DNA from: an uncultured Oscillospiraceae bacterium
GTDB taxonomy: Bacteria; Bacillota; Clostridia; Oscillospirales; Oscillospiraceae
DNA length: 64,000 nt
Assembly (NCBI GenBank): GCA_947632175.1
Contig: CANROC010000016.1
Coordinates: forward strand, 1-64,000
Direction of reading: 5' to 3'
A program made the translations under genes and the position numbers. Shown in pieces: positions 30,170 to 63,785 of this stretch; position 1 is the stretch's first letter, and each line of letters starts with the position of its first letter. The notes beneath the pieces are model-generated. The model saw nothing but the letters and a program-made list of their open reading frames with translations. It was not told where the DNA came from and ran no database searches.

Positions 30170-32320
30170 TCAGTTTTCCATCTGCTTCCCCAAGAATCCG
30201 GCTACGGTCTGGGCGAGCTTGTACTCCACCTCGCCTGCGGTGCTGTCGCCCTCGGCGAAGAAGAGGACACAGCCCATGACGTCGCCCTCGGTGAGGATGG
30301 GCGCGGCCACGGTGACGGCGTACTTCTCCGCGCCGTCGGCGGGGCTCATGGGCTTCTCCCCTTGGCCCCGGTGGTAGACCTGGCGGCCCTCCATGACGGC
30401 CTCCAGCTCGGGGCTGACGGCCTTGCCGTAAAGCTCCCGGCGGTTGACGCCGCACACGGCGATGACCGTGTCCCGGTCGCAGATGGCCGCCGGCAGGCCC
30501 GTGGACTTGCTCAGCGTCTCGCACATCTGCCCGGCAAAGTCGCTGAGCTCTCCCATGGGGGAGTATTTCTTGAAAATGACCTCCCCGTCCTTCTCCGTGT
30601 ATATCTCCAAGGGGTCGCCGTCGCTGACAACATGGACATGGTAGACCTTGTCCCCGTGGTGGACGGAGGACTGGATGACGGCTGTCGGTGCGTTATCCGC
30701 CATGTCCGGCTCAAAATTTGCGTTTGCCGGGAGCGTCCCGCATTGGAGAAGACTGTCGATGTCGGCCCGGAGCTGGACCTCGATGTGGTCCTCGAAGACC
30801 CGGATCTTTTTCACGATGAGTTGGATGTCGTTCCGGTCCAGCTTCTCCTTGCTCAGAATGTCGTCGAAGACCTCCATAGCGGTTTTTGCCGCCCGGTTGA
30901 CGCGGATGATGGTGTTGCGCCGGTCTTCGGTGAGGCGCAGCTGGTTCTCGATGCCCTCGATGCGGCGCAGAAGATCGTCCTCCAGCTCGTCGTAGGTCTC
31001 CTCCAGCGCCTCCTCCCGGTCCGGGTGCCTCATGATGTCCCGGATGCGCTGGCGTTTGGTGGCCCGAAGCTCCTCCCGTAGGTCCCGGAGGACCTCCTCC
31101 AGATTGGCCGCCGCCCGTTCCGCCTCGGCCACGTCCTCCCGCTCGCTTTCCAGCTCCCGGTTGAGCCGGTCCAGCATGGCGGAGGAGTTGTCCCTGACCT
31201 TCCGAACGTAGATCTTCAAAAGCTCGTCCAGCTTGTCCACGCGGATGTGGTGGCTGGTACAGCCCTTGAGCCCCCGGCGGTGGTAGAGTCCGCACCGGTA
31301 GGCGTCCCTGAGGTCGGCGCGGCTCATGGCGAACATGGGGCTCCCGCAGTCGCCGCACTCCAGGAAGCCGGAGTAGGCGTTGTCGTACTTCTTCTGTCCC
31401 CGGTAGTGGGCGGTGGTGCGCTCGGCAAGCTGGGCGCGGGCGATGGCGAAAGTCCGGTAGTCGATGACGGCCTGGTGGTGGTTTTCAATGACGATGTGGT
31501 CCTGCGCGTCGCGCTTCACGTCCCGGCCGTTGATCTTCCCCCGGGTATATTTGCCCTGCCGGAGGGTGCCGATGTAGAAGTCGTTTTTCAAAATGCTCTC
31601 CACGGTCATAATGGCCCACTCCCGGCGGGCCTCCCGGGTGGAGTCCAGGCCCTCCGCCTCCCGGCGCTGCCTCTCGGACATGCGCGGCGTGGGGACGCCC
31701 TCGTCGGTGAGGTAATTGGCGATGCGCTTGTAGCCCCAGCCGGAGATGTATAATTGGAAGATATCTCGCACGATCTGGGCCTCAGTGGGGACCACTTCAA
31801 ACTCCTGACGCTGGTTGACGATGTACCCGTAGGGCGCGGCGCAGATCCACTTCCCGTCCTCCTGGCGCCGGCGTATGACGGACTTGACCTTTTTGCTGGC
31901 GTCGGTGACAGGCATCTCGTTGATGAGGAACTGGAACTGGATCTTCAGCCAGTCATCGTCGTTGGGGAAGTCGATGTTGTCCCCTATGGAGATGATGCGC
32001 ACCCCGGCGTCCCGCAGGTCCTCCAGCTCCACCAAGCCCCGGGAGTTGCGGCGGGAGAAGCGGGAGAAGTCTTTCACCACTAAGATGTCCAGCCGGTGCT
32101 CCACAAGCTCCCGCCGCATTTTCCGGTAGCCCTCCCGCTGTTCAAAGGTGTAGCCGGAGCGGTCCCGGTCCTCGTAGAAGGTCAGCGCGCTTCCCGGGAA
32201 CCGGCGCTTCACAAAGTCCTCGATGATGGCTTTCTGGTTCTCAATGGACGTATTGTCCCGGTCCAGCTCCTCATCCACGGAAATCCGGCAGTACCCGGCG
32301 ATGTCGTATGTTTCTGTCAA
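30170..32320 (-). CDS. Large serine recombinase fused in frame to the C-terminal part of SpoVT
   Basis: 716 residues with two origins. Residues 1-570 are a large serine recombinase. Arg12 and catalytic Ser14 lie in GYCRISVDEE, with DFSRFSRRNSRGL and IGDNIDFPNDDDW in the catalytic domain. A recombinase domain (about 165-280), a zinc ribbon (CGDCGSPMF..YRCGLYHRRG..C, about 318-350) and a coiled coil (about 365-450) follow. From residue 571 the sequence is SpoVT: LEIYTEKDGEVIFKKYSP (end of the AbrB fold), ELSDFAGQ, ICDRDTVIAVCG, and AGFLGKQMEN, as in the C-terminal GAF domain of SpoVT. The junction is at the 13-bp core 30612-30624. The start is TTG 32320, with GGTGAT upstream. Confidence 0.92.
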   Translation of the reverse strand: MTETYDIAGYCRISVDEELDRDNTSIENQKAIIEDFVKRRFPGSALTFYEDRDRSGYTFEQREGYRKMRRELVEHRLDILVVKDFSRFSRRNSRGLVELEDLRDAGVRIISIGDNIDFPNDDDWLKIQFQFLINEMPVTDASKKVKSVIRRRQEDGKWICAAPYGYIVNQRQEFEVVPTEAQIVRDIFQLYISGWGYKRIANYLTDEGVPTPRMSERQRREAEGLDSTREARREWAIMTVESILKNDFYIGTLRQGKYTRGKINGRDVKRDAQDHIVIENHHQAVIDYRTFAIARAQLAERTTAHYRGQKKYDNAYSGFLECGDCGSPMFAMSRADLRDAYRCGLYHRRGLKGCTSHHIRVDKLDELLKIYVRKVRDNSSAMLDRLNRELESEREDVAEAERAAANLEEVLRDLREELRATKRQRIRDIMRHPDREEALEETYDELEDDLLRRIEGIENQLRLTEDRRNTIIRVNRAAKTAMEVFDDILSKEKLDRNDIQLIVKKIRVFEDHIEVQLRADIDSLLQCGTLPANANFEPDMADNAPTAVIQSSVHHGDKVYHVHVVSDGDPLEIYTEKDGEVIFKKYSPMGELSDFAGQMCETLSKSTGLPAAICDRDTVIAVCGVNRRELYGKAVSPELEAVMEGRQVYHRGQGEKPMSPADGAEKYAVTVAAPILTEGDVMGCVLFFAEGDSTAGEVEYKLAQTVAGFLGKQMEN
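30612..30624 (+). repeat. attachment core, left (recombinase/spoVT 3' junction)
   Basis: GGGTCGCCGTCGC on the plus strand. It is identical to 38556-38568; the next bases differ on both sides (G..T here, C..G there), so the identity is exactly 13 bases. Confidence 0.9.
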
Positions 32321-32356
32321 TTAATATCACCACGCTTGCCTTAGTTTGCAGATAAT

Positions 32357-32385
32357 ATTGTATCACGATCTCAGGGAAACAGCAA
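32357..32385 (-). promoter_or_regulatory. Recombinase promoter
   Basis: Minus strand TTGCTG, 17-base spacer, TACAAT, giving a leader of about 30 bases before the TTG start at 32320. Confidence 0.6.
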
Positions 32386-32435
32386 GAACGATTTGTGCCT
32401 TGCGCAAAAATCGTTCTATGATAGAAAAACGTAAA

Positions 32436-32530
32436 AAGTTGCAAAAATCTATTATAGGCTCTTGACCTTTGGCATATTATTTGCTATTCTATGGTTGAAA
32501 ACCGCGTCAAGTTGCAATAATCTATTATAG
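32436..32530 (+). promoter_or_regulatory. ATPase promoter flanked by 22-bp direct repeats
   Basis: AAGTTGCAAAAATCTATTATAG (22 bases; 32436-32457) recurs with one mismatch at 32509-32530. Between them is a promoter TTGACC-17-TATTCT (32462-32490). The downstream repeat falls in the leader, 14 bases before the GTG start. The arrangement suggests a pair of regulator binding sites bracketing the promoter. Confidence 0.6.
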
Positions 32531-32543
32531 ACGAGGTGATTTT

Positions 32544-33842
32544 GTGGAGATCGGGCGTGACGACTATCTGAATAAGCTGATCAGCCGGAAAGGCAACGGG
32601 CTGATTAAGATCATAACCGGGGTCCGCCGGTGCGGGAAGTCCTATTTGCTGAACACCATCTTTTACCGGCACCTGTTGGAGTGCGGTGTGCCGGAGGACC
32701 ACATCATCCGGTTCGCTTTTGACTCCGCCGACGACCTGTATCTGATCGGTGAGAGCCTCATCGACATGCGCAAGGCGGGCCGGGGCGCCGACCCGGAGCG
32801 ATTCATGGCCTACATCCGGAACAGAACGGCGGAGCAGGGGACATATTATCTTCTCCTGGACGAGGTGCAGATGATGGACTCCTTTGAAGCCGTTCTGAAT
32901 GGGTATCTGCGGCGGGACAATGTGGACGTCTTTGTGACCGGGAGCAACGCCAAATTCCTGTCCAGCGACATCATTACGGAGTTTGCCGGCCGGGGGGACG
33001 AGATCCATATGTACCCCCTGAGCTTTGCGGAGTTCATGACCGCTTACCCCGGCGACAGGTACGAGGGCCTGTCCCAGTATATGCTCTACGGCGGCATCCC
33101 GTTGGTGGTCCTGCGGGAGAGCCCTCAGGACAAGGCCGCCCTCTTAGAGAATCTGTTCAGTGAAATCTATATTCGTGACATCGTGGACCGCCACGGAGTC
33201 CGGAACAGGGGAGAGCTGGAGGACCTTTTGAACATCGTGTCCTCCGCCGTGGGGTCCCTGACCAATCCCGAGAAGCTGAAAAACACCTTCCACAGCGTCA
33301 AAAGGTCCCGTATCACCTCCGCTACCATCAAGAGGTATCTTGACTATTTCCAGGACTCCTTCCTGCTGGAGGCGGCACAGCGGTACGACATCAGAGGGAA
33401 GGCGTATATCGAGACCCCAAGGAAGTATTACTTCTCCGATTTGGGCCTCCGCAACGCGAGGCTTAACTTCCGGCAGTTCGAGCCCAACCATGCCATGGAG
33501 AACGTGCTGTACAACGAGCTGCGGATGCGAGGGTATCGGGTGGACGTGGGCGTAGTCCCAGTGGCGGAGAGGGACCGGCTGGGCCGGGTGACCCGGCGGC
33601 AGCTGGAGGTGGACTTCGTCTGCAACCTGGGCTCCGCCCGCGCCTACATTCAATCCGCCTGGTCCCTGCCGGATGAGGACAAGCGCGCCCAGGAGACGAG
33701 GCCTTTCGCCAAAATCGACGACTCCTTTAAGAAAGTCATTGTCACCCGCGACGTGGTCCCCGCCCAGTACGACGACCGGGGGATCCTGACGGTCAACGTC
33801 TACGACTTTCTGTTGGATCCCAACCTGCTGGCCGGGAGTTGA
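32544..33842 (+). CDS. AAA-family ATPase with DUF4143 domain (cargo)
   Basis: 432 residues. The Walker A is ITGVRRCGKSYLL (about residue 30), and the Walker B region is YYLLLDEVQMMDSFEAV. FVTGSNAKFLSSDI is the sensor-type motif. The C-terminal DUF4143 region includes ETPRKYYFSDLGLRNARLNF and a nuclease-like EVDFVC. These proteins are abundant in gut bacteria; their molecular role is unclear. The start is GTG 32544 with GAGGTGATTT upstream. It is divergent from the recombinase and is paralogous in architecture, not closely in sequence, to the ATPase at 36898. Confidence 0.85.
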   Translation: MEIGRDDYLNKLISRKGNGLIKIITGVRRCGKSYLLNTIFYRHLLECGVPEDHIIRFAFDSADDLYLIGESLIDMRKAGRGADPERFMAYIRNRTAEQGTYYLLLDEVQMMDSFEAVLNGYLRRDNVDVFVTGSNAKFLSSDIITEFAGRGDEIHMYPLSFAEFMTAYPGDRYEGLSQYMLYGGIPLVVLRESPQDKAALLENLFSEIYIRDIVDRHGVRNRGELEDLLNIVSSAVGSLTNPEKLKNTFHSVKRSRITSATIKRYLDYFQDSFLLEAAQRYDIRGKAYIETPRKYYFSDLGLRNARLNFRQFEPNHAMENVLYNELRMRGYRVDVGVVPVAERDRLGRVTRRQLEVDFVCNLGSARAYIQSAWSLPDEDKRAQETRPFAKIDDSFKKVIVTRDVVPAQYDDRGILTVNVYDFLLDPNLLAGS

Positions 33843-33849
33843 GGTACTC

Positions 33850-34059
33850 CTACGGCTCCCGCCCCGCCAGCGCCTTTTTGTTGTGGACCAGCAGTCCGGC
33901 GGTGAGCTCTGTCAGGTCCTCGGCGCCGGAACGGTATACCGCCGCCAGATACCCCCGCTCCCGGCACCGGACGTACAGCTCCCGGAGCCCCGCACCCTCC
34001 TCGCCGCCCCGCAGCCAGACCTCCACGATTTTTCTTTCCTCGCAAACCGTGATCTCCAA
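33850..34059 (-). CDS. Small conserved hypothetical protein (cargo)
   Basis: 69 residues from TTG 34059, preceded by GGGGGTG. The sequence YLAAVYRSGAEDLTELTAGL followed by LVHNKKALA resembles a group of short Firmicutes proteins with a YLVxVYxSGxxDLxxNTxxLLxHN pattern that I have seen near mobile genes. No function is known. It is convergent with the ATPase, 8 bases from its stop codon. Confidence 0.6.
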   Translation of the reverse strand: MEITVCEERKIVEVWLRGGEEGAGLRELYVRCRERGYLAAVYRSGAEDLTELTAGLLVHNKKALAGREP

Positions 34060-34298
34060 ACATCACACCCCCGCCGGTTATTTTTTCCACCGGCGGTGGC
34101 GCTTTATTCACACGGACCAGGTCTGCTGTCAGCGCAGGGTACCCTCAGAACCGGGCGTCCCGGTTGACTTTGCTCAATCGGATATCGGCTGTGGCTTTTT
34201 TGGGGAAAAATAGAGTTTTTTGTTTCCCTTTCCCGTCAGGTGTGATATAGTATCCTTTGCTGAACACATATTCTACATTTTTTTGCGGAGGCGGCTCG

Positions 34299-34787
34299 AT
34301 GACAGAGAAAGAATCGTTTATCCTCCAGCTGCGTGAAAAATACTCCACTTTTTTGATAAAAATAGCCAAAACCTACGAGGTTCCTCCGGACGACATAGAA
34401 GACCTTGTCCAGGATGTTTTTGAGATCGCGATCAGAAAAGCTGACATACTCATGACATATAAGGACGCCAAAGTGTGGCTGGGCAAAACGATGAGAAACT
34501 GCATCAGAAATTACCGGAGGCTTCACGCAAACAGATACACATTTTCTCTGGAGGACTACAGCGATTTCCCCGCGCCGGAGGGAGACGAGCCGCTTTCACA
34601 CTTCCTGCCGGCCCAGCTCTCCGACAGCGAGCAGCAAATTCTGATTTGGTACATCGAGCAGAGGCTCGACTACGAGGAAATGAGCAAAAGATTGGGCATA
34701 ACCGAAATATATTGCCGCGTAAAGGTAAGCCGGATCATCAAAAAATGCCGGAAGCTGATGAAAAATGATAAATCTTATTTTTCCTGA
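34299..34787 (+). CDS. ECF-like RNA polymerase sigma factor (cargo)
   Basis: 162 residues. Region 2 is visible as IEDLVQDVFEIAIRKADIL with VWLGKTMRNCIRNYRRLH. Region 4 is SDSEQQILIWYIEQRLDYEE followed by a helix-turn-helix (MSKRLGITEIYCRVKVSRII). ATG 34299 has GGAGG upstream; the open frame starts earlier. It is followed after 54 bases by a membrane DUF4367 gene, the common sigma/anti-sigma arrangement. It would let the element transcribe its own or host genes. Codon usage is more A+T-rich than the surrounding chromosome. Confidence 0.82.
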   Translation: MTEKESFILQLREKYSTFLIKIAKTYEVPPDDIEDLVQDVFEIAIRKADILMTYKDAKVWLGKTMRNCIRNYRRLHANRYTFSLEDYSDFPAPEGDEPLSHFLPAQLSDSEQQILIWYIEQRLDYEEMSKRLGITEIYCRVKVSRIIKKCRKLMKNDKSYFS

Positions 34788-34841
34788 TAACAATACCCTG
34801 TTGTCAACACACGTATATACTGAGGAGAAAGGAGTGAGCCC

Positions 34842-35687
34842 ATGGACGCTCATGTAGGTCCCGGCGAGAACATGTCAAATTGCCCTCACGATATGGACGA
34901 GCTGGCAAAAGAGCTGGACGCCATGTCTGTTGAAGATCTCAGGGAGGAGTTTGATATACTCCTGTCCGAGATGGATGAGAATTCCTCTTGCGGCGATTTG
35001 CTGGACTTGTACCTGGACGCCATTGCCCGCAAGGAGCCTCAGCCGCAGGATATGGATGCCCGGACGACGTATGAGCACTCCCTGAAGCGGATGAAAGCCA
35101 AGGGCAAGAGACGCCATGGTTCCCGTACTCTCGTGAAGGTGTGTATCGTCGCCGCGGTGATCGCCGCCCTCCTGGCGGCCTCCGTCATCGTGGCCTATGC
35201 CAAGGGGTTTGACCTGTTCAATCGGATCGCCCAGTGGACGGCGGAGGCTTTTGGACTTTCGCCGGATGGTACGCTGGTCAAGACTGGTACTGAACTCCCG
35301 CCACAGTTGCAGGGAATGAAGGAAGCAATGGAACAGTATGGCATCAGTTCTGCTCGTCTTCCCACCTATTGGCCGGAGGGATACGAGCAGTCACAGCTAT
35401 ATTCTTCAGATAGCCCAGAATCATACATAGTTTCAGGCGCGTTTGGAGAAGGCGGAACTCGCATTATTTTATCCTATATTCAGCACCTATCAGGAACGCC
35501 TAAGGACTCATTTAACATTGATGACCAATCGCTTGAAAACTATGAACATGACGGGATCAAATTCCACATCATGACAAATGATGGCGGTTTTCTTGCCGTT
35601 TGGGTTCAGGACACCGTTGAAGGAAGTTTATCAGGGGTAAACTCATACGAGGAACTTACCAAAATACTTGATTCGATTGGAGGCTGA
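34842..35687 (+). CDS. DUF4367 membrane protein, possible anti-sigma partner
   Basis: 281 residues with AAAGGAGTG upstream. The cytoplasmic N-terminus (residues 1-95) is acidic and helical (MDELAKELDAMSVEDLREEF). One membrane segment spans about 100-122 (VCIVAAVIAALLAASVIVAY). The external part (about 125-281) ends in a DUF4367-like fold (RIILSYIQHLSG; FHIMTNDGGFLAVWVQDTVE). Position directly behind a sigma factor and this topology suggest an anti-sigma or sensor role; the classic zinc-type anti-sigma motif is absent, so that is inference. Confidence 0.78.
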   Translation: MDAHVGPGENMSNCPHDMDELAKELDAMSVEDLREEFDILLSEMDENSSCGDLLDLYLDAIARKEPQPQDMDARTTYEHSLKRMKAKGKRRHGSRTLVKVCIVAAVIAALLAASVIVAYAKGFDLFNRIAQWTAEAFGLSPDGTLVKTGTELPPQLQGMKEAMEQYGISSARLPTYWPEGYEQSQLYSSDSPESYIVSGAFGEGGTRIILSYIQHLSGTPKDSFNIDDQSLENYEHDGIKFHIMTNDGGFLAVWVQDTVEGSLSGVNSYEELTKILDSIGG

Positions 35688-35692
35688 CATTT

Positions 35693-36127
35693 TTGAAAAA
35701 AAGCATAAAATACCTGGTCTTGATAGTCATGGTCGTTTCGGTTCTCAGCTCCTCCGTATTGGCAGCGGAACAGACCAACAAGTATATCAGGTCAGGTGGG
35801 GGCTATATCCACAGGTGGGGTCCCGGGGATATCTCCGTTGAATTTCATGTCATTGGGACAGACATTATGGACACAATTGGGGCGCATAGAGTCACCGTCT
35901 TCAAAATGAATGGTGATCTAATAGATAGCGGAAGTGATGAGCTTGTTGCGACATACTACTACGGAACATACCCCGGCTTGATGATCACCAACAGTGTCGC
36001 TTATTCCAATTCCATAAGGCTCCAGGTAGAGACCGGTCATCAGTATTATGCCGTGATGATCTATTATGCCACCCTTAACGGAGGCGGAGATGATATGGCA
36101 TTCTGCACCGACCCCGTCTGGGCATGA
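35693..36127 (+). CDS. Small secreted protein (cargo)
   Basis: 144 residues from TTG 35693 with GGAGG 9 bases upstream, 5 bases after the previous stop. The N-terminus MKKSIKYLVLIVMVVSVLSS then VLAAEQ is a signal peptide with a likely cleavage after VLA. The mature part is rich in Tyr, Gly and Ser with beta-strand alternation (YYYGTYPGLMITNSVAYSNS). I recognise no family. Coupling with the DUF4367 gene suggests it belongs to the same signalling unit. A terminator follows 17 bases on. Confidence 0.78.
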   Translation: MKKSIKYLVLIVMVVSVLSSSVLAAEQTNKYIRSGGGYIHRWGPGDISVEFHVIGTDIMDTIGAHRVTVFKMNGDLIDSGSDELVATYYYGTYPGLMITNSVAYSNSIRLQVETGHQYYAVMIYYATLNGGGDDMAFCTDPVWA

Positions 36128-36144
36128 CCCCCTCACAATGAAAG

Positions 36145-36179
36145 AAGACCGAGAGGCCGCGCCTCCCGGTCTTTTCTTG
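36145..36179 (+). terminator. Terminator of the sigma-factor operon
   Basis: Stem AAGACCGAGAGGC / GCCTCCCGGTCTT with one mismatch and a 3-base loop, then TTCTTGT. Confidence 0.8.
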
Positions 36180-36227
36180 TGTATCGTACCAATTTACTTA
36201 AATACAGATATAAGGAGAACATACATC

Positions 36228-36746
36228 ATGAAAAAACAGAATCACATCGTGTCGCTCATAACAAACAAAAAGTTTAAGGAGTCCCAGCCAGAATCTCTTT
36301 CCGGCCGCGAGGACCTCGACGCGGACACCATCGAGCTTCTGGCACAGGGCATGAGGATGACCCCCTTGCAAATGGCGTCCGGGGGAGCCGCGCCCGTCGA
36401 GACCGCCTTCGCTCTCATCAGCGGCATGGTGGATTGTCTGCACCCGGCGACACAGCGTTCCGCCAGGCTCCTCTTGGAGGAGCTGCGCCAGCTCTTTCAG
36501 GAGTCTGAGGAGCTCTACGCCCAGCGCGCCTGCTGGCAGTACGCCGTCACGGAGCCTTGTCCCTCCCGCTACGCCCTCAAGGTGGCGGAGCGGACGGGCA
36601 GAGGCTGGCTGATCACCCCCGTGGAATCCCAGCCCTTCACCAACGACCGCGCCGTCGCCGAATCCGCCGCCGAGCTCTTCACCCGCTGCGCCCTCTCGCC
36701 CATCCACCTGGACGAGGCCCTCAAGGACTTCCTGACCACACTCTGA
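36228..36746 (+). CDS. Conserved hypothetical protein (DUF6514-like)
   Basis: 172 residues from ATG 36228 with AAGGAGAA upstream. The C-terminal 65 residues (YAVTEPCPSRYALKVAERTG, then WLITPVESQPFTNDRAVAES) match my recollection of a family in Oscillospiraceae whose members end in a region around SPIHLDEALKDFL. Function unknown. Base composition here is GC-rich like the host, unlike the A+T-rich genes just before it, so it may have entered the element from a related genome. A terminator follows. Confidence 0.7.
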   Translation: MKKQNHIVSLITNKKFKESQPESLSGREDLDADTIELLAQGMRMTPLQMASGGAAPVETAFALISGMVDCLHPATQRSARLLLEELRQLFQESEELYAQRACWQYAVTEPCPSRYALKVAERTGRGWLITPVESQPFTNDRAVAESAAELFTRCALSPIHLDEALKDFLTTL

Positions 36747-36771
36747 TTCCCCCGCCCCCGTCGGCCCCTCC

Positions 36772-36791
36772 AAGCCCCGGGGGCTTTTTTT
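36772..36791 (+). terminator. Terminator after 36228-36746
   Basis: AAGCCCC / GGGGCTT stem followed by TTTTTTT. Confidence 0.7.
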
Positions 36792-36804
36792 GCCGCAAAA
36801 AATC

Positions 36805-36875
36805 AATCTTTGTCAACAAAGATTGCAACTATACTTATAATATTTGTTGACAAAGATGAAAGTTTCGGCTATAAT
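36805..36875 (+). promoter_or_regulatory. Strong promoter with two palindromic operator-like sites
   Basis: A perfect 20-bp palindrome AATCTTTGTCAACAAAGATT lies at 36805-36824. A second, 3-mismatch copy (ATATTTGTTGACAAAGAT, 36840-36857) contains the -35. The promoter is TTGACA (36847-36852), 17 bases, TATAAT (36870-36875). A repressor bound at both sites would block RNA polymerase directly. Confidence 0.75.
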
Positions 36876-36897
36876 AGCTGCAAAGGGAGGGTACAGC

Positions 36898-38346
36898 ATG
36901 GCTATTATCAATAAAGAAAGCATCCTCAAGGTGCTGACATCTTTTAACCCGTGGTGGAAGACAGGGACGATCAATCCGAAGCTCTCAAAGACATATAAGA
37001 GATTCGCGTTTTACGAGGCCATGAAGCGGCTCATGCGGGAGGATATTCGCCGGACCGTTATCCTGACAGGAACACGCCGGGTGGGAAAGACTACGATCCA
37101 ATATCAAATGATCGAAGAGCTGCTCAAAAGGGGCGTTCCTCCGCAGAAGATCGTTTTTATCTCCATGGATCACCCCATGCTGAAGCTCAGCGGATTTAAT
37201 GATATTTTGGAGTGCTACCACGAGAATATTTACCCCGAACAGGATGTCTACTACTTTTTTGACGAGGTGCAGTACGCCCAGGATTGGGACAAATGGCTCA
37301 AAACGATCTATGATACACAGCCGGACACAAGGGTCGTCGCTACGGGCTCGGCAAGTCCCGCGCTGATAAAGGGCAATCAGGAAAGCGGCGCCGGCCGTTG
37401 GTCTACGATCCAGGTCCCCACAATGTCCTTTTATGAGTACTGCGAGCTTCTTGACGTGGACAGGCCCGTACTTCCAAAGGATCTGAAAATAACGCCGCTG
37501 CTCTATAAGACCCAGCAGGAGCGCACGAGCATCATGCTCCAGCTGTCCAAGGTGCAAAATCATTTCAACCGCTATTTGCAGGTGGGTGGCTTCCCTGAGC
37601 TGGCGTTGGCCGACAGCGACGTGATGGCGCAGCAGATCATGCGGGAGGACGTGGTGGATAAGGTCCTGAAAAGGGACCTCCCGTCCCTCTATAACATCAG
37701 AAATGCCACGGAATTGGAGCGGATATTTTTATACCTCTGCAACGTCTCGTCGGAGGTCGTCTCCGTTGACGCCATAGCAAGAGAGCTGAGCGGCGTGTCC
37801 CGCCCGACCGTAGAGAACTATATCCAATATTTAGAGAGCGCCAATCTCATCTACCAAAGCTGGCCGGTCAATATGGCGGGGAAAAAGGTCCTGAAAGCGA
37901 GCCCCAAGATTTACATCGCGGACGCCGCCATCAGGAACGCCGTTTTGATGGATGATTCATTGCTCACCGACCCTGTTGAGATGGGAAAGATCGTAGAAAC
38001 CGCCGTATATAAGCATGTGGCGGCATTTTACTACCAACAGGCGACCTCTGTCGGCTATTACCGAGGCGGCAGAAAGGGGAAAGAGGTCGATATAGTCGTA
38101 GAGTACACGAATAAAAAGAATATTTTGATAGAGGTCAAATATCGCGAAAACGCCCCCATCGCCGACGACGATGCCATCTCCGAGCTGTGCGGCGAGGCCG
38201 CGGCGTCCATCGTCGTGACAAAAAACGCAAACGACTTCGGCATCCACAACACAAAAGCAGGCAAGGACCTGATCCGCATCCCCGCCTTCGCCTTCCTGTA
38301 TCTCTTGGGCCACGCGGAAAAACACGGGTATCGGGGGATGGAGTAA
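36898..38346 (+). CDS. AAA-family ATPase with DUF4143 domain (cargo)
   Basis: 482 residues from ATG 36898, downstream of the promoter, with AAAGGGAGG upstream. Walker A is LTGTRRVGKTTIQYQMI (about residue 56). The Walker B region is VYYFFDEVQYAQDWDKWL. RVVATGSASPALI follows. The helix-turn-helix VDAIARELSGVSRPTVENYI near residue 300 and the C-terminal nuclease-like EVDIVVEYTNKKNILIEVKY fit DUF4143-type ATPases. It is the last gene before the right attachment core. The two operator-like palindromes suggest tight repression, perhaps by a product not visible here. Confidence 0.87.
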   Translation: MAIINKESILKVLTSFNPWWKTGTINPKLSKTYKRFAFYEAMKRLMREDIRRTVILTGTRRVGKTTIQYQMIEELLKRGVPPQKIVFISMDHPMLKLSGFNDILECYHENIYPEQDVYYFFDEVQYAQDWDKWLKTIYDTQPDTRVVATGSASPALIKGNQESGAGRWSTIQVPTMSFYEYCELLDVDRPVLPKDLKITPLLYKTQQERTSIMLQLSKVQNHFNRYLQVGGFPELALADSDVMAQQIMREDVVDKVLKRDLPSLYNIRNATELERIFLYLCNVSSEVVSVDAIARELSGVSRPTVENYIQYLESANLIYQSWPVNMAGKKVLKASPKIYIADAAIRNAVLMDDSLLTDPVEMGKIVETAVYKHVAAFYYQQATSVGYYRGGRKGKEVDIVVEYTNKKNILIEVKYRENAPIADDDAISELCGEAAASIVVTKNANDFGIHNTKAGKDLIRIPAFAFLYLLGHAEKHGYRGME

Positions 38347-38476
38347 ACCGCGGTTCGTTATTTCTTAATGCCCGGCAACGTTCGCGCGCCCCTTTGCACT
38401 GCCGGATAAACCGTTCAGAGGCCGGCTTCGCGTCCTCCCTCTTCGGGCGCGTTATGTCATTGCCATAGCATATGTA

Positions 38477-38653
38477 CTATTCCGCCCCCAGCCTCTCCGC
38501 CAATCCCATCATCGCGAGGCAAAAGCGCTCCCACCGTGTCAATGCTGTCAGTGACGGGTCGCCGTCGCGGATGCGCAGGGTGCGGCGGATCTCCTTGGGG
38601 ATGACGACCCTACCCAGGTCGTCGATCCTGCGAACGATTCCAGTTGCCTTCAT
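38477..38653 (-). pseudogene. spoVT: SpoVT 5' fragment with foreign 25-residue tail
   Basis: 58 codons. Residues 1-33 (MKATGIVRRIDDLGRVVIPK, then EIRRTLRIRDGDP) match the start of SpoVT, the forespore AbrB-type regulator, essentially identically to what I recall for B. subtilis. After the Pro codon the frame enters the element and reads SLTALTRWERF...LGAE before a stop. The missing half of the AbrB fold (LEIYTEKDGEVIFKKYSP) is at 30170-30610. AGGAGG precedes the ATG, and a SigG-like promoter lies upstream. As it stands the fragment cannot form the AbrB swapped-hairpin dimer. The foreign tail is best read as the recombinase's own native C-terminus. Confidence 0.93.
38556..38568 (+). repeat. 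attachment core, right (spoVT 5' junction)
   Basis: GGGTCGCCGTCGC on the plus strand, encoding (minus strand) the Gly-Asp-Pro of SpoVT. Identical to 30612-30624. Confidence 0.9.
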
Positions 38654-38690: not shown

Positions 38691-38720
38691 TAGTATCCGC
38701 CGATTCCCCGCCAATATGCA
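38691..38720 (-). promoter_or_regulatory. SigG/SigF-like forespore promoter of spoVT
   Basis: Minus strand TGCATA, 17-base spacer, GATACTA, about 38 bases upstream of the spoVT ATG. Known SigG promoters have TGnATA and CATACTA-type boxes, so 11-12 positions agree. SpoVT is forespore-expressed in B. subtilis, which fits. Confidence 0.55.
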
Positions 38721-63542: not shown

Positions 63543-63785
63543 TTAAAGATGCTTGATCTCATCGAGGCACGTGTCGCAGATGTTCTTGCCCTTGTGGACG
63601 CTGAGGCCCTTGGTCTTCCCGCAGAAAACGCAGGAATCCTCGTGCTTGGCCAGGACAATCTTTTCGCCGTCCACGAAGATCTCCAGGGAGTCCTTCTCAG
63701 CGATGTCCAGGGTGCGACGAAGTTCGATGGGGATGACGATCCTGCCCAGTTCGTCAACCTTGCGTACGATGCCAGTGGATTTCAT
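63543..63785 (-). CDS. AbrB/SpoVT-family transition regulator with C-terminal zinc-ribbon-like motif
   Basis: 80 residues. The N-terminal 50 (MKSTGIVRKVDELGRIVIPI, then ELRRTLDIAEKDSLEIFV) form the AbrB swapped-hairpin DNA-binding domain. Unlike plain AbrB, the tail has CVFCGK and CDTCLDE, two CxxC pairs about 20 residues apart that could bind zinc. The start has GGGAGGAG upstream and a SigA-like promoter at 63817-63844. It resembles the spoVT start in this window but is a separate gene. AbrB-type proteins repress post-exponential genes. Confidence 0.9.
   Translation of the reverse strand: MKSTGIVRKVDELGRIVIPIELRRTLDIAEKDSLEIFVDGEKIVLAKHEDSCVFCGKTKGLSVHKGKNICDTCLDEIKHL

Follow-up and report, generated by a model that had tools for sequence, protein, structure and literature searches.

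In an uncultured Oscillospiraceae bacterium, a 7.94-kb element encoding a large serine recombinase (LSR) interrupts the spoVT gene after codon 33. The locus lies in the first 64,000 nucleotides of contig CANROC010000016.1 (assembly GCA_947632175.1), a stretch called the window here, and all positions are given within it. This is likely an LSR-driven integrative element whose own attachment site, attP, lies inside the LSR gene, with the recombinase and SpoVT trading C-termini in a manner that would be reversible in principle.

The 5′ half of spoVT (codons 1–33, ending in RIRDGDP; 38,556–38,653, minus strand) was identified by profile and translation and encodes the AbrB-type DNA-binding part. 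The 3′ half (codons 34–179 plus stop; 30,170–30,610, minus strand) matched PF15714 SpoVT_C with an E-value of 3e-39. In a profile search of the genome, the two pieces matched positions 1–32 and 27–180 of TIGR02851. A third match, at 63,645–63,782, covered only positions 1–46, which is the AbrB-type part, and no other spoVT was found in this assembly of 3.54 Mb in 82 contigs (97.7% complete), where a copy may lie in a gap. The window has exactly two copies of the 13-mer GCGACGGCGACCC (expected 0.00), one at each junction: attR (38,556–38,568, minus strand) and attL (30,612–30,624, minus strand). Core to core, the element measures 7944 bp, and its cargo, LSR excluded, has a GC content of 53.4% compared to 63–65% in the flanks. 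The DNA of a congener (G014) with an uninterrupted spoVT of 179 amino acids (aa) aligns to both flanks of the window, which meet at the core.

A preliminary description of the window had placed two spoVT pieces on the same strand, at 38,653–38,556 and 30,610–30,170, and every coordinate checked holds. The 13 bp that it gave as common to both element ends were confirmed, with no further occurrence, and its complete, in-frame joined gene of 179 residues is matched by the G014 copy. A second intact spoVT, which it had named as counting against it, was not found in the draft genome, and the intact and further split copies that it proposed to look for in related genomes were both found. It had not listed spoVT among the genes known to be interrupted, and spoVT is not among the split sporulation genes found in the literature searched. 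Its reading of a site-specific LSR element in spoVT is supported, with constraint on both halves and on the LSR. What it overlooked was that the recombinase open reading frame (ORF) spans 716 aa because it reads on through the C half of spoVT without a change of frame, and that the N half has its own in-frame tail of 25 codons from element sequence.

The chimeric ORF (30,170–32,320, minus strand; TTG start) encodes, according to Pfam and its translation, the LSR followed in the same frame by SpoVT, which begins at about its residue 28. The LSR proper, delimited by alignment, comprises 565 codons (30,625–32,320, minus strand) with Resolvase (PF00239), Recombinase (PF07508) and zinc ribbon (PF13408) domains. 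Residues Y10, R12 and S14 and the motif DFSRFSRR, which we take to be catalytic, were invariant across 23 aligned LSR sequences. By sequence, the C-terminal part had its best PDB match in SpoVT (2w1t), and the LSR part in YokA of SPbeta. An AlphaFold model from 23 chimeras was confident for the SpoVT domain (blocks from residue 591 mostly 83–91) but not for the junction; with a mean predicted local distance difference test score (pLDDT) of 66.7 and a predicted template modelling score (pTM) of 0.31, its relative domain placement is meaningless. The ratio of nonsynonymous to synonymous substitution rates (dN/dS) of the LSR was 0.11 (8 copies, within the genus). LSR and SpoVT C half shared one in-frame ORF at 77 of 80 named loci, the best 80 kept out of 233 in the named collection that encode a relative. 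Two of the other three (L118 and L129) stop at a contig end before the junction, and L142, the same as G061, sits elsewhere.

On the other side of the element, the spoVT N half runs into the 25-codon tail SLTALTRWERFCLAMMGLAERLGAE and a stop (38,477–38,555, minus strand), as established from the reading frame and from comparison of tails. Tails of 23–28 codons were found in 37 of 40 distinct cases, a set that leaves out the rearranged G246 (L248) and L183, whose N half is cut. The other three cases (L230, L251 and L295, from G376, G174 and G181) belong to unfused LSRs only 47–49% identical to that of the window, which agrees with the tail being the end of the LSR itself. Within the genus, third positions vary most in tail codons 10–21 (0.44 vs. 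0.24 and 0.18), as expected for a translated tail. We infer that the tail is the C-terminus that the LSR would have in a circular form of the element. On the simplest reading, attP would lie across the last LSR codons in the same frame as spoVT, and insertion would thereby swap the C-termini of LSR and SpoVT.

The attachment sites themselves follow the pattern of serine integrases. All pairs share GGYGACCC in the core, with GA as the probable central dinucleotide. When the element ends were placed together, an inverted repeat centred on GA appeared in 17 of 17 pairs, with 13–20 of 24 positions matching, compared to only 9–13 on the spoVT side (attB). Shuffled sequences equalled the attP dyad in 0 of 1000 trials for 16 pairs and in 2 of 1000 for the weakest, G280. 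The usual attB would be a site around spoVT codon 33, used by an element that is probably related to mobilizable elements. Insertion, as the sequence shows, leaves SpoVT with 33 residues and a 25-residue LSR tail, a product in which the AbrB fold should break, and gives the LSR the C-terminal domain of SpoVT. Excision would return both proteins to their exact original form, such that spoVT would be OFF in inserted cells and ON in excised cells. Since the inserted state yields only the chimera from the LSR gene, excision, if any, must be by the chimera. A reciprocal C-terminus exchange between a recombinase and its target is, as far as our literature searches reach, new, and no paper on an attP inside a serine integrase gene was among the matches listed.

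The same arrangement was found across relatives of the window genome. Among 34 genomes of the genus, 19 had a full-length uninterrupted spoVT, 11 had spoVT split at the same codon, and four (G006, G007, G016 and G021) were without a resolvable copy. An LSR of at least 86% identity was present in exactly the 11 split congeners (best match elsewhere, 31%); eight copies were full-length and open, one was frameshifted (G024), and two were cut by contig ends (G023 and G032). In the family sample of 400 genomes from 106 genera, 62 genomes from 28 genera carried the LSR (E up to 1e-60). In the order sample of 394 genomes from 168 genera, 35 genomes from 28 genera did so (E up to 1e-100), with fusion judged by ORF length alone. 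The family LSR genomes other than the window genome and two congeners, 59 of the 62, were searched again: 49 were in-frame chimeras with the C half in one ORF of 657–830 aa, two had a full spoVT (G061 and G047), and eight showed other or broken arrangements. Two genomes in a single contig, G159 and G110, were both split, with halves ~15.6 kb and 40 kb apart, respectively. The same junction was present in isolates, including Flintibacter muris, Butyricicoccus pullicaecorum and Oscillibacter valericigenes.

Several comparisons point to movement of the element. Across 74 chimeras, the distances of the LSR and SpoVT parts were only loosely correlated (Spearman 0.37; 0 of 500 permutations as high), which argues that the element moves between hosts and that new chimeras are made in new hosts. 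Because of this loose relation, the idea of a chimera inherited as one old gene was dropped. The LSRs of L180 and L188 differ by 6% and their SpoVT_C parts by 61%. Between G024 and G032, synonymous divergence (dS) was 0.08 for the LSR (108 codons only), 0.55 for LepA and 0.71 for SpoVT_C. On a LepA tree of 25 scored genomes (10 split, 15 intact), at least six changes of state were needed. The genome comparison demonstrates that intact and split spoVT alternate between sister species: the sister pairs G000/G014 and G033/G028 differ in state. The dN/dS of SpoVT_C was 0.14 in split species and 0.14 in intact species (9 of 19 intact).

Sequences upstream of the two genes were compared for promoter motifs. 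A promoter-like TGCATAT...GCGGATACTA precedes spoVT (38,691–38,720, minus strand), and the block TGMATAT...GCGGATACTA is kept in 20 aligned congeners, split and intact. Compared with the sigma-F and sigma-G consensus, this motif resembles a forespore promoter. In C. difficile, the spoVT promoter resembles both sigma-F and sigma-G types, the two factors control the gene in the forespore, and a spoVT mutant makes no heat-resistant spores (PMC3789822). The LSR gene is preceded by TTGCTG-N17-TACAAT (32,357–32,385, minus strand), and TTGCNN-N17-TACAAT was found upstream of the LSR in eight of nine genus elements, G019 being the exception. This motif is sigma-A-like, the LSR promoter looks vegetative, and a sporulation promoter for the LSR was dropped as a candidate.

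The sigG sequence, for the forespore sigma factor, was kept in 41 of 43 genomes (40 LSR carriers and three intact congeners), although in five only the C part matched at threshold. As a separate observation, a break near codon 95 divides sigG into two pieces in 4 of the 43 genomes (G037, G205, G253 and G019, the first piece of G019 having stops), and in a fifth, G083, the first part was missing and only the C part was present (loci L301, L302, L304 and L306–L309). In both loci scanned with Pfam, L301 (with a Mob_Pre relaxase) and L304, an LSR of another kind lies beside the sigG C part. The sigG of the window genome is intact, and no paper on a split sigG was found in the literature searched.

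A gene in the window element (33,850–34,059, minus strand) encodes a 69-aa protein that belongs to no named family, co-occurs with the LSR and is a candidate recombination directionality factor, perhaps serving chimera-driven excision. Of the 80 named loci, 50 had at least 4 kb of sequence upstream of the LSR, and 48 of these carried the small gene there, no more than 9.9 kb away; L113 and L165 were the two without it (two DNA-read seeds). Within the genus, nine of the 11 split genomes had it and none of the 23 others did; the split genomes in which it was not found, G023 and G024, are 90% and 76% complete. The protein gave no convincing Pfam, NCBIfam or PHROG match, and its structure model (pLDDT 72.1, pTM 0.48) was too weak for use. 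By eye, a hairpin was noted at its gene, with no sporulation-type promoter visible. With the sigma-A-like LSR promoter and this small gene without a visible sporulation promoter, nothing in the DNA ties excision to sporulation.

The cargo genes, all on the plus strand, encode an AAA_14/DUF4143 ATPase (32,544–33,842; Pfam), an ECF-type sigma factor (34,257–34,787; Pfam/NCBIfam), a DUF4367 protein (34,842–35,687; Pfam), perhaps an anti-sigma factor, a protein with a signal-like N-terminus by eye and no assigned function (35,693–36,127), a protein without assigned function whose true start may be internal (36,066–36,746), and a second AAA_14/DUF4143 ATPase (36,844–38,346; Pfam); the two proteins without function come from the ORF list and Pfam. 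The ECF sigma/DUF4367 cluster (window 34,257–36,746; L314 8473–10,984; L316 4096–5686) is inside the element in G000, G013 and G032, and directly upstream of intact spoVT in G014 and G028, with 80.8% identity to the window in G014 (flanks beyond, 92–94%) and 73% in G028. Pfam and NCBIfam gave no phage structural family among the nine window ORFs, and other elements were inspected by eye. One relative, G280, has relaxase, NikA/MobC-like and RhuM genes beside the LSR, and another, G159, has relaxase/mobilization genes by sequence likeness, which points to mobilizable elements. The term "skin-like" in the preliminary description finds no support as it stands: relatives carry relaxase/mobilization genes and the window element has no Pfam/NCBIfam phage gene. 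The element works in the manner of the intervening elements of sporulation genes; its relatives have the look of mobilizable elements that are site-specific.

A number of observations weigh against a reversible integrative element in spoVT. No attP or attB junction was found in carriers, and no circular form was found among the IMG/VR, plasmid and phage records searched: IMG/VR gave three pattern matches and no LSR relative, the LSR matches in 17 plasmid records were all below 60% identity, and none of seven phage records held a circular form. The window element has no relaxase (Pfam/NCBIfam, nine ORFs) and could be immobile. Of the nine genus LSRs whose length allowed a judgement, one (G024) is frameshifted, and the only copy of the 69-aa protein gene has stops in G022 and G031. 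The split/intact label is not clearly clustered on the LepA tree, shuffles being equally low for split in 89 of 500 cases. Insertions may be recent, in which case constraint on the spoVT halves could predate them and is no proof of use. Two family genomes have a full spoVT with the LSR elsewhere, beside lepA in G061 and frameshifted in G047, so spoVT is not the sole insertion site and there is at least one other. A simple insertion leaves the ECF-DUF4367 cargo upstream of intact spoVT in G014 and G028 unexplained. Finally, two loci are rearranged: G246 (L248–L250, G246:C2 15,000–62,000) has ~41 kb between the spoVT halves and the LSR flipped beside the N half, and in G063 (L223–L224, G063:C23) the halves are reversed, facing outward around ~18.6 kb of chromosome-like genes.

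Some further details of these loci and records were noted. At L255 (G061:C59), an LSR of the spoVT-element family ends adjoining lepA, with spoVT intact. The large genes in the G246 locus resemble, by eye, a BREX/Pgl-type defence cluster. Two records deposited as human-gut phages contain this LSR family: MT836658.1 (L261) looks like a fragment of a bacterial chromosome in which a 51% LSR is joined to SpoVT_C, and MT839487.1 (L260) resembles a piece of a mobilizable element and stops a few codons short of the core. Breaks of contigs at the core were considered as a sign of a mixed state, and of the loci inspected G334 and L129 break within bases of it; these were too few for use.

The explanation that competes best with a reversible element is a plain parasite, by which spoVT is lost for good in a lineage, carriers sporulate badly or never, and intact relatives are simply element-free. 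We regard this as possible, though probably not correct. Mobilization genes in relatives, horizontal spread, and the damaged small-gene copies and broken LSR speak for it; the attachment arms, intact in the 17 pairs examined, speak against it, as does the undiminished constraint in both spoVT halves, the promoter motif and the LSR, although recent insertions would look alike. Spread itself also needs excision or copying at some point.

A domesticated, sporulation-timed switch of the skin type, with programmed excision in sporulating cells serving the host, is unlikely. Split copies do keep the forespore-like spoVT promoter motif, sigG persists in most genomes tested, SpoVT_C constraint is not relaxed in split species, and SpoVT is needed for heat-resistant spores in C. 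difficile (PMC3789822), so that sporulating carriers should need excision. Against this stand the sigma-A-like LSR promoter, the lack of a visible sporulation-type promoter at the candidate directionality gene, the horizontal movement and frequent change of state, and the fact that excision in the forespore would strip the element from the spore genome unless it re-inserted. The preliminary description had proposed a developmental switch; insertion off and excision on survives as a broad idea, and timing by sporulation finds no backing in the sigma-A-like LSR promoter or in the gene of the directionality-factor candidate, where no promoter of sporulation type was visible. We consider it likelier that the element behaves as a plain mobile element, whose occasional excision would let some cells form good spores, than that it follows a dedicated developmental programme.

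A more speculative idea, which we consider a long shot, is that the swap itself is the switch: the short-tailed free LSR would insert, and the LSR with the captured SpoVT domain would act as a sensor-equipped excisase that reads SpoVT's signal, cuts out the element and rebuilds SpoVT. With SpoVT active in the forespore, the result would be a germ-line spore switch, and the circle would have to re-insert after germination. An assembly artefact or chance gene fusion can be dismissed, for although many genomes are drafts or metagenome assemblies and the halves are on different contigs in 9 of 11 split congeners, the same junction in single-contig G110 and G159 refutes it and recurs in isolates and in 77 of 80 loci.

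Whether carrier gut bacteria form spores, and hence their transmission, may hinge on a mobile element's state. A forespore target also matters for the element: the mother cell can discard it, whereas the forespore cannot without the lineage losing it unless the circle re-inserts. The expected outcomes are re-insertion, infrequent excision, or carriers that sporulate poorly. The exchange of C-termini raises the question of whether a captured domain changes the direction of recombination. In genome annotation, carriers will seem to lack a normal spoVT and to encode a recombinase about 720 aa long.

To our knowledge, the known split sporulation genes, including yabG in the mother-cell compartment, all act in the mother cell; spoVT departs from them as a forespore gene. 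Their elements (skin, vfbin, gin, SPbeta/spsM and yin) and the spoVT element have in common that an LSR-bearing element interrupts the gene at a short shared core and that the joined gene is, or for spoVT would be, complete and in frame. No paper on a split spoVT was found in the literature searched. Split genes so far are a handful in Bacillus and Clostridium; in the gut bacteria described here, cultured as well as uncultured, the target of the recombinase family is a forespore regulator. In skin, an LSR element likewise splits sigK of B. subtilis and C. difficile in frame, and its excision restores sigK; we know of no recombinase-target chimera for skin elements. Splits in sigK, spsM, spoVFB, gerE and yabG are documented in PMC10747680, where skin is prophage-like and in a mother-cell gene, two points on which the spoVT element differs. 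The gin element in gerE of Bacillus cereus resembles the spoVT element in being non-prophage, with serine recombinases and an inverted repeat at the element att site around a 9-nt shared core, and differs in its mother-cell gene and in sporulation-specific excision, which was demonstrated for gin (PMC5595907). For yin in yabG of C. botulinum, integrated and excised forms occurred in one culture, and a putative small directionality factor of 72 aa was described (PMC10747680), compared to the 69-aa candidate here; the spoVT element is likewise intervening. Yin differs in being prophage-like, in one strain and in a different gene (PMC10747680).

Outside sporulation, an engineered fusion of a serine integrase and its directionality factor indicates that an appended domain can reverse LSR direction (PMC5737554). 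The PDB listing includes a YokA-YotN fusion chain. The engineered fusion uses a known factor, whereas in the spoVT element a host regulator domain is appended to the LSR. In mycobacteriophage integration-dependent immunity, attP lies inside the repressor gene and insertion changes the repressor C-terminus; the spoVT element alters the recombinase itself and, reciprocally, the host regulator. Tn4451/TnpX-type and other LSR-relaxase mobilizable elements resemble the relatives of the spoVT element in combining an LSR with a relaxase and MobC and in a GA central dinucleotide. They are less site-specific, unlike the spoVT-element family, which is mostly in spoVT.

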